Positions 45,101 through 46,380 of a stretch of DNA of 47,807 nt are shown piece after piece. Source of the stretch: Thermoproteota archaeon (GTDB taxonomy: Archaea; Thermoproteota; Thermoprotei_A; Sulfolobales; Desulfurococcaceae). Position numbers and translations under genes: made by a program. Below the pieces are notes generated by a model, which was not told where the DNA came from, did not search any database, and worked only from the letters and a program-made list of their open reading frames with translations. The stretch lies in contig JAUQPA010000006.1 of NCBI GenBank assembly GCA_030550615.1, forward strand, positions 1-47,807, in the 5' to 3' direction. The stretch's first letter is position 1, and each line of letters begins with the position of its first letter.

Positions 45101-46174
45101 CTAGTATTCTACCTTAAACTTCAAAATACCTGCTATACCATTGAATGTTTTATTAAACCAATCTGATTCGGGGAGATCATCGCTTATAATAACCGTTTTT
45201 ACTCCTTTTTGAGAAGCAAGCTCCAGCCATTGGTTTACATCTTCTCTTGTTTCACCTATGAGAAGAGTTTTCAGTAATCCTTGTTCAAGTGCTAATTTTA
45301 CTTCTTCGTCACCGTAAACTATTAATCCATCGTCTTTAGCTAGGTGGTATTTAAACTCCTCGAGCTGTTTCATTGAATCAGCGTATTCATATTCTTTTAG
45401 TAGATCTCCCGCTTTACTTATTAATTCTCTTAAACCTACTTCACCTTGGTATGATACATCAATTATCTCTGGTGCTATTATTTGCTTAAGCCTGTAATCT
45501 AGGTAGTTCCCCTGTATAAAATCCTGTTTAGCGTAGCCAGGTCCACCTATAATCAACGTCTTGAGTTTACCCTGCTCATATAGGGGCAGAAATATGTTGT
45601 TAGCGTGTTCACCAACTTTCTTGTAGAAGTCCTCTACCATTTGCTCAATAATTCTATCAAATCTTCTCTGACTCTGGCCTCCTTTGTGGTGTTTACCTGG
45701 AATATATGCTTCCAGTTCCTCCACTACTTCAAGTCTATTACCTTTTAGTAATCCTATTGTAGCGGCATCTCTTTCAATTATTAGTAATCCCGCAATATTG
45801 CTCTCGGTAACCATGTCCTCGAGGAACTCGGTGTGGAAATACTTATCAGTTCTATAGAAGAACACCTGGACTTTCTCCGGTGGAACGAGCATTATGACTG
45901 TTGATTCATAAGTATCCGGGTTCATTCCAGCAAATAATACTAAGCCGTTATCAGGTACTTTGGGTATCTTGCTTAGTCTATCGTATGCTACGCTGAGCGC
46001 CCATGTTACTGCATTACGTGTTTTCTTCAATTTAATGTTCTCGGCAACCGCTGATTCCTGTCTTAGTAATGCTAGAACATCACTTATGGGTCTACCTGGA
46101 GGGATGTAGAGACTAAGTAGTATTGTTGCATGCGCTCTCCATTTCTTAAGTTCCTTGATGATCTCACGTAGCAT
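45101..46174 (-). CDS. prf1: Peptide chain release factor aRF1
   Basis: 357 residues in the uninterrupted frame from ATG 46174; the true N terminus is probably 17 residues longer through a +1 frameshift (see 46175-46229). aRF1 reads all three stop codons and releases the peptide. Seen: stop-codon loop NIKL at 46-49 (family NIKS; NIKL is, from memory, usual in crenarchaea), LRQESAVAENIKLKKTR around it, and GGQ at 165-167 (GKHHKGGQSQRRF). The C-terminal domain lacks the zinc-ribbon cysteines of some euryarchaeal homologues. The ATG at 46174 has no SD, and upstream codons continue a normal aRF1 helix. Confidence 0.93.
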   Translation of the reverse strand: MLREIIKELKKWRAHATILLSLYIPPGRPISDVLALLRQESAVAENIKLKKTRNAVTWALSVAYDRLSKIPKVPDNGLVLFAGMNPDTYESTVIMLVPPEKVQVFFYRTDKYFHTEFLEDMVTESNIAGLLIIERDAATIGLLKGNRLEVVEELEAYIPGKHHKGGQSQRRFDRIIEQMVEDFYKKVGEHANNIFLPLYEQGKLKTLIIGGPGYAKQDFIQGNYLDYRLKQIIAPEIIDVSYQGEVGLRELISKAGDLLKEYEYADSMKQLEEFKYHLAKDDGLIVYGDEEVKLALEQGLLKTLLIGETREDVNQWLELASQKGVKTVIISDDLPESDWFNKTFNGIAGILKFKVEY

Positions 46175-46229
46175 TTGTTTATCTACTCTCAGTTTCTCTA
46201 ATTGTTCCTCACTATAGCTAAAAACTCAT
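46175..46229 (-). other. 5' segment of the aRF1 gene with candidate +1 frameshift at TTTTT-AG
   Basis: On the minus strand ATG (46229-46227) is followed by AGT TTT TAG, so the direct frame stops after three codons. Skipping one T (the run is 46224-46220) gives ATG AGT TTT AGC TAT AGT GAG GAA, which reads on in frame through EEQLEKLRVDKQ into the main aRF1 frame with no stop. That stretch matches the extra N-terminal helix expected in aRF1. In the main frame a TGA at 46228-46226 blocks any earlier start, and no ATG, GTG or TTG lies between it and 46174. SD-like GGAGG and GAGGT stand upstream of ATG 46229. Confidence 0.7.
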
Positions 46230-46272
46230 GACCTCACTCCTCCTTAAACACATCCATGGAGTAGTTTTAAAA
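46230..46272 (-). promoter_or_regulatory. Promoter and leader of the aRF1 gene
   Basis: TTTTAAAA at 46272-46265 (minus strand) predicts a transcription start near 46242. The leader of about 13 bases reads GAGGAGTGAGGTC immediately before ATG 46229, making that ATG the first and best-supported start codon. Confidence 0.55.
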
Positions 46273-46380
46273 CATGAAGCACCTTAAATACTTCCACCGT
46301 GCTAATAAATGTTTGTTAATAATGGGAGTATTTTAAGCTTAATTCTACGCTTGATCATAACTACTTCTTGGACTAATGTT

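Follow-up and report, generated by a model that had tools for sequence, protein, structure and literature searches.

The window, as the whole stretch of DNA analysed here is called, comprises 47,807 nucleotides (nt) of contig JAUQPA010000006.1 from a Thermoproteota archaeon of the family Desulfurococcaceae, and the element under study is the 5' end of its gene for the release factor aRF1 (prf1), encoded on the minus strand. The product was identified as aRF1 by its match to TIGR03676 (aRF1_eRF1; 430.8 bits against a cut-off of 234.7), and the Pfam domains eRF1_1, eRF1_2 and eRF1_3 were all matched. Among the class-I release factor motifs, GGQ is present and NIK is invariant, as seen in the alignment and the window protein, and the frame contains no internal stop. 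The start of the gene is built from the following features:

46265..46272, minus strand: TATA-like box TTTTAAAA of the aRF1 promoter, read from the sequence, with a predicted leader of ~13 nt.
46237..46243, minus strand: GGAGGAG, the first Shine-Dalgarno (SD)-like element, at about normal initiation spacing to ATG 46229; an anti-SD energy peak of the family lies here.
46231..46235, minus strand: GAGGT, the second SD-like element, nearly touching the ATG; its equivalent in the family is AGGG directly 5' of the start.
46218..46229, minus strand: zero-frame mini-open reading frame (mini-ORF) ATG AGT TTT TAG, kept as a start, one or two codons, NTT and a stop in 117 genomes.
46217..46223, minus strand: putative shift heptamer TTT TAG C, at which peptidyl-tRNA would slip +1 from TTT to TTT with AGC as the next codon; NTT TRA N in 117 genomes.
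45101..46219, minus strand: post-shift aRF1 coding region, from AGC 46219 to the stop ending at 45101, supported by TIGR03676, Pfam and codon periodicity from the shift site.
46172..46174, minus strand: first canonical in-frame ATG within aRF1, without an SD and not conserved across the family.

The leader length was predicted from the spacing between TATA box and transcript start in archaea. Read on the minus strand from 46243, the sequence is GGAGGAGTGAGGTC ATG AGT TTT TAG C TAT AGT GAG GAA, with ATG at 46229-46227, AGT at 46226-46224, TTT at 46223-46221, TAG at 46220-46218 and C at 46217; the run of five T occupies 46224-46220. The aRF1 frame is +1 relative to ATG 46229 and is closed upstream by a TGA (46228-46226) within ATGAGT, and from there to ATG 46174 it holds no ATG, GTG or TTG; it ends at 45101. 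When one T is skipped, the mini-ORF is joined to the aRF1 frame and the product reads MSFSYSEEQLEKLRVDKQMLREIIKELKKW..., so that the opening described in the first-pass annotation, out of frame with aRF1 and joined to it by one skipped T, was borne out by direct reading. The sequence also agrees with that annotation in having a TATA-like box and an SD before ATG 46229 and no SD-like sequence upstream of ATG 46174.

The aRF1 gene 5' ends were compared across the window's order and outgroups in its class and phylum, and a layout was counted when a start codon was separated by one or two codons from a slip codon with a stop after it, and aRF1 lay in the +1 frame. An alignment of this kind had been proposed in the first-pass annotation, and the same layout was found in 117 genomes from ~45 genera and 8 families. 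With the families labelled f1 to f12, it is present in all members of the window family f1 (38/38, including records named Desulfurococcaceae and Staphylothermus), of f11, the Sulfolobaceae (31/31), of f3, which includes Ignisphaera (15/15), and of f4 (4/4), and further in 23 of the 30 genomes of f2, 4/5 of f5, 1/3 of f10 and 1/1 of f12, the single f12 case being also open to a direct GTG start. The layout is absent in f6, f8 (including Pyrodictium) and f9 (including Fervidicoccus), where ordinary in-frame starts are found, and essentially absent from f7; the class and phylum outgroups examined have ordinary starts, or at least no shared NTT-stop layout of such kind.

Within the 117 layouts, the zero-frame start codon is ATG in 87, GTG in 26 and TTG in 4, and the start-to-stop distance is three codons in 92 and four codons in 23. 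The slip codon is ATT in 46 genomes, CTT in 39, TTT in 30 and GTT in 2; perfect re-pairing of UUU with UUU, as first proposed, is thus right for part of the window family and does not hold in general. The heptamers are mainly ATT TAG C (28), TTT TAG C (26), CTT TGA C (19, the usual form in Sulfolobaceae), ATT TAG T (15), CTT TAG C (9, several of the Desulfurococcaceae among the carriers), CTT TGA T (7) and TTT TAG T (4), with a few others. The stop may be TAG, TGA or TAA, and some stop is present in every layout.

A laboratory organism is among the carriers. In G201 and G202, 230 amino acids of aRF1 are identical to the Sulfolobus acidocaldarius chain of PDB 8hku, and the gene starts AAGGG ATG AGT CTT TGA C AGA TAC GAG; the pattern AGGGATGAGTNTTTRRC occurs once in G201, at the aRF1 gene. 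The first in-frame start of these genes is a TTG within SLYIPPG, past the entire first helix, which initiation there would remove. The S. acidocaldarius aRF1 used for cryo-electron microscopy (PDB 8hku) was expressed in E. coli, and its N domain was without density (PMC10516650).

The layout exceeds chance because it is conserved in 117 genomes. The motif alone is unremarkable: the window holds 13 copies of RTG-N4-TTTRR where 19.6 would be expected, and such counts, being at chance level, were not used as evidence. The layout is uncommon when it leads into a long open +1 frame that lacks an in-frame start: in the complete relative G024 (1.32 Mb), 34 of the 2187 ORFs of at least 100 codons, aRF1 included, match its loosest form, and the candidates among the other genes have the appearance of antisense or mis-started ORFs.

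The pattern of substitution points to the place from which the aRF1 frame is read. In f1, the substitutions at codon positions 1/2/3 of the aRF1 frame are.33/.21/.54 over the first 16 post-shift codons; before the shift they are.59/.58/.53. Families f11 and f3 show a similar post-shift pattern. The Phe codon that overlaps the slip codon and the stop is TTT, never TTC, in the carrying families, while TTT makes up only 38% of the Phe codons in the same aRF1 genes. Within the 117 genomes the TTT count holds by construction, and it was therefore repeated without that condition: no TTC was found at a true site, and three TTC-GAG first matches apparently came from an open frame upstream. As the relatives are not independent, both the codon-position and the TTT counts are descriptive and are not p-values. 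The codon signature begins at the shift site, which supports reading of the aRF1 frame from there.

Taken together, these observations lead us to put the probability at about 0.87 that aRF1 is expressed by a programmed +1 ribosomal frameshift, in which termination and slip would compete through the gene's own product. Translation would begin at ATG 46229 and proceed through AGT and TTT, which brings UAG into the A site. With aRF1 plentiful, ribosomes would terminate after three codons; with aRF1 scarce, they would pause, the P-site tRNA would slip one base forward onto UUU, and translation would resume at AGC, giving the shifted product MSF-SYSEEQLEK...; in Sulfolobus, ATGAGTCTTTGAC would give the +1 product. 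In this way aRF1 would repress its own synthesis, because it is the sole class-I release factor and reads all three stops. That archaea have a single class-I factor for all three stop codons is known (PMC8789281, PMC3521657), so that the stop of the mini-ORF is one read by aRF1 itself. What the comparison shows is the layout, its conservation, the coding frame beyond the site and the want of any conserved alternative start; from these we infer the slip and its efficiency. It is very likely that the frameshift is real and functional, and likely, if a degree less so, that it is autoregulatory, the feedback following from the logic of a stop read by the gene's own product.

SD-like signals lie around the site. 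The AGGG directly 5' of the start is found in 68 of the 92 genomes with a three-codon frame; in G024, 4 of 895 genes have it. Two anti-SD energy peaks are seen in f1 and f3: the first lies at the distance normal for initiation, and the second ends 3-4 nt short of the slip codon. In f11 and f2 only the second is seen. AGGGATG pairs as AGG-GAU with one bulged rRNA A, and the GGTGAT of f2 pairs without a bulge. The E. coli prfB site is AGGGGG UAU CUU UGA C (PMC8710568), and the place of the archaeal anti-SD pairing is like that of prfB, yet 5-16% of shuffles equal the family mean. The AGGG or GGTGAT, abutting or containing the start codon, may also stimulate the slip, which is the weakest step of the proposed mechanism.

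Several observations weigh against a frameshift of this kind. AUU, in the P site of 46 genomes, re-pairs with UUU less well than CUU or UUU does. The register of the SD-like pairing, counted on the rRNA, is ~4 nt more relaxed than in prfB, so that strain cannot be assumed. The layout fails in a few members of f2 and f5, which have near-cognate starts or a third-frame GTG. Some in-frame start lies upstream of the shift in 28 of the 117 genomes, among them three of the window's genus: in G004 and G005 an ATG, and in G002 a GTG, lies six codons before the post-shift codon in an uninterrupted aRF1 frame, so that the shift could be bypassed. Uninterrupted frames in close relatives had been named in the first-pass annotation as evidence to the contrary, and these three genomes do have them; all three still retain the shift site, and a comparable upstream in-frame start is lacking in G000, G001, G003 and G006. 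In 89 of the 117 genomes the shift is preceded by no in-frame start, in 69 there is likewise none ahead of the residue that aligns with Met 46174, and in the 31 Sulfolobaceae genomes such an upstream start was never found. The +1 shift proposed at the outset is supported by conservation and by its RF2-like anatomy.

Among the rival explanations, the one that survives best accepts a real +1 frameshift and takes it for a fixed-ratio device that sets a low aRF1 level, without autoregulation. The literature search found no study on dependence on the aRF1 level, which leaves room for such a device; a stop, however, is kept in every layout, and termination there puts the gene's own product in direct competition (PMC8789281), which makes a fixed ratio unlikely.

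Direct initiation in the aRF1 frame at a non-canonical codon beside the shift (GUU, GUC, GUA, CUA, GCA and so on), with the mini-ORF as a decoy or an upstream regulatory ORF, is less probable still. In its favour, the aRF1 frame remains open immediately before the shift, and in some members of f5 and f2 the zero-frame ATG seems to be replaced by ATA, ATT or ATC. The aRF1-frame codon just before TTT, however, varies between families (GTC, GTT, GTA, CTA, GCA, ATA, GCT and others) and is mostly not near-cognate; what is conserved instead is the zero-frame ATG or GTG, together with the NTT-stop, and direct initiation would not require the retention of a stop overlapping TTT. As no codon is conserved, a non-canonical start was rejected.

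Termination at the mini-ORF could also be followed by reinitiation at an internal start, yielding a shorter aRF1. The window offers ATG 46174 for this purpose, and most of the first helix would be retained. In the AlphaFold model of the post-shift frame (mean predicted local distance difference test score 88), there is a short helix at residues 5-9 and a first long helix at 15-26, and Met 46174 is residue 17. A start at ATG 46174 would, on this model, trim the first long helix of the window species and not abolish it; the loss of an N-terminal helix claimed earlier thus stands for helix 5-9 and the first turn and fails for the main helix, which is mostly kept. Reinitiation is nonetheless very improbable: no start codon is conserved, the next in-frame ATG, GTG or TTG lying anywhere from 14 codons before to 94 codons after the point aligned with Met 46174; the next start of S. 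acidocaldarius falls within SLYIPPG; and the residues between the shift and the Met 46174 point evolve as coding sequence.

More improbable again is that transcriptional slippage or RNA editing, and not the ribosome, restores the frame. The window's clade has a T run, but the sites of the Sulfolobaceae and of f2 and f3 (CTTTGAC, ATTTAGC) hold only three T, too short for usual slippage, and the conserved in-frame stop would be without a role; with most sites only TTT, slippage was rejected as a general explanation. A one-base sequencing error, assembly error or strain mutation, which the first-pass annotation had named as the simplest alternative and which the T5 run (a classical site of homopolymer error) and the 67-contig assembly might suggest, is refuted by the 117 genomes that agree, complete single-contig ones included, most with a shorter T run and many carrying CTT or ATT in place of a long T run.

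The proposed programmed +1 frameshift of aRF1 has its closest parallel in bacterial prfB, which encodes RF2. Both have an early in-frame stop read by the gene's own product, a YTT slip codon overlapping a TRA stop, +1 re-pairing to UUU in the P site, a fourth base that is mostly C and a G-rich SD-like element just upstream. Both are old and repeatedly lost, the prfB shift being present in 64% of 12,753 bacterial genomes (PMC12421855), and the CTT TGA C of Sulfolobaceae is identical to the prfB consensus (PMC3711429). In contrast to these likenesses, aRF1 belongs to an unrelated family that is not homologous to RF2 (PMC2613156), and the archaeal site lies at codon 3-4, right after initiation, whereas the prfB site is further into the gene. 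UAG is common in the archaeal sites and never used by prfB (PMC12421855), ATT is the commonest archaeal slip codon, and the SD-like element abuts or contains the start codon in a relaxed register. The aRF1 device would be like prfB in its working and is not prfB by descent.

Giant viruses provide a second parallel. The eRF1/aRF1-type release factors of Mimivirus (R726) and Megavirus (mg280) have a +1 shift at CUU UAG C or CUU UAA C, which was tested by expression in E. coli (PMC3521657), and the CTT TAG C heptamer of R726 is also found in relatives of the window organism. The viral genes differ in that they also need UGA readthrough, of which the window aRF1 has none, they come from amoeba viruses, and their clade is a separate one. 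Programmed frameshifting within the window's order is known for a cellular gene, fucA1 of the archaeon Saccharolobus solfataricus (PMC8211752). That case is a -1 shift on A-AAA-AAT with a stem-loop, in one species and without a link to a stop codon or a release factor; at the window site this heptamer is absent and the frame relation is +1.

Jeudy et al. (2012) stated that such autoregulation is absent from the archaeal homologues (PMC3521657), and the archaeal layouts contradict that statement. In reviews of archaeal recoding, a single cellular -1 case is listed beside a suggested magnesium-chelatase case and cases from viruses, with nothing on release factors (PMC8211752, PMC9855744). The main text of the GeneTack survey gives no aRF1 shift, and prfB shifts less than 50 nt from the start escaped that survey (PMC3711429); the archaeal shift site is 6-9 nt from the start codon. 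The 2025 survey of prfB makes no mention of archaea (PMC12421855), and no paper on aRF1 frameshifting was found in the open-licence literature.

On the aRF1 tree, the present and absent states of the layout need seven changes, with some branches weakly supported. The simplest reading would place a single gain after the divergence of f7 and f6 and explain f8, f9 and parts of f2, f5 and f10 by loss. Complete conversions are seen in f2, where G035, G157 and G159 have an in-frame GTG start and no layout and retain TTTAGY. The layout is best read as a programmed +1 frameshift that is ancient, with a single gain and several later losses, and that probably lets aRF1 limit its own synthesis. With more reserve, we favour the view that +1 control of release factors evolved on three or more occasions (in bacterial RF2, in the eRF1-type factors of giant viruses and in archaeal aRF1). 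The archaeal form would then be an order-wide ancestral device in which the SD-like element that abuts or contains the start codon both initiates translation and primes the slip two or three codons later, and aRF1 would be the first case among cellular archaeal genes of a conserved autoregulatory programmed +1 frameshift. If this is true, a textbook bacterial circuit exists in the non-homologous sole release factor of archaea, including laboratory organisms such as S. acidocaldarius, and provides a clean case of convergent evolution. The annotated starts of aRF1 genes in these archaea need checking, and archaeal frameshifting is opened to direct test in a genetically tractable host.

Some individual gene starts deserve mention. 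In f5, L136 (G043) and L150 (G038) read GGGGG ATA TCA ATT TAG C and GGGG ATT TCT ATT TAG C, respectively; here the layout seems to start at a near-cognate codon, as if a weak start and the shift were combined. In f2, L177 (G156) and L231 (G158) have no ATG, GTG or TTG near the start in the zero or the aRF1 frame, only a third-frame GTG, and are explained neither by a direct start nor by a +1 shift. L183 (G150) and L219 (G151) read ATG AAG TAT TAG C, with a codon that could not re-pair once shifted by +1 and without a good in-frame start; they may start at an ATT behind GGTGAT. In f8, the only plausible GTG start of L088 (G171) is out of frame with aRF1 and has no slip site, which is possibly an error or an unusual start. 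Outside aRF1, the minus strand of G024 (reverse complement of 1080332-1081493) has an ORF for a predicted membrane protein after ATG AAC TTT TAA C AGAGGTGAT ATT, which may start at the ATT after a strong SD.
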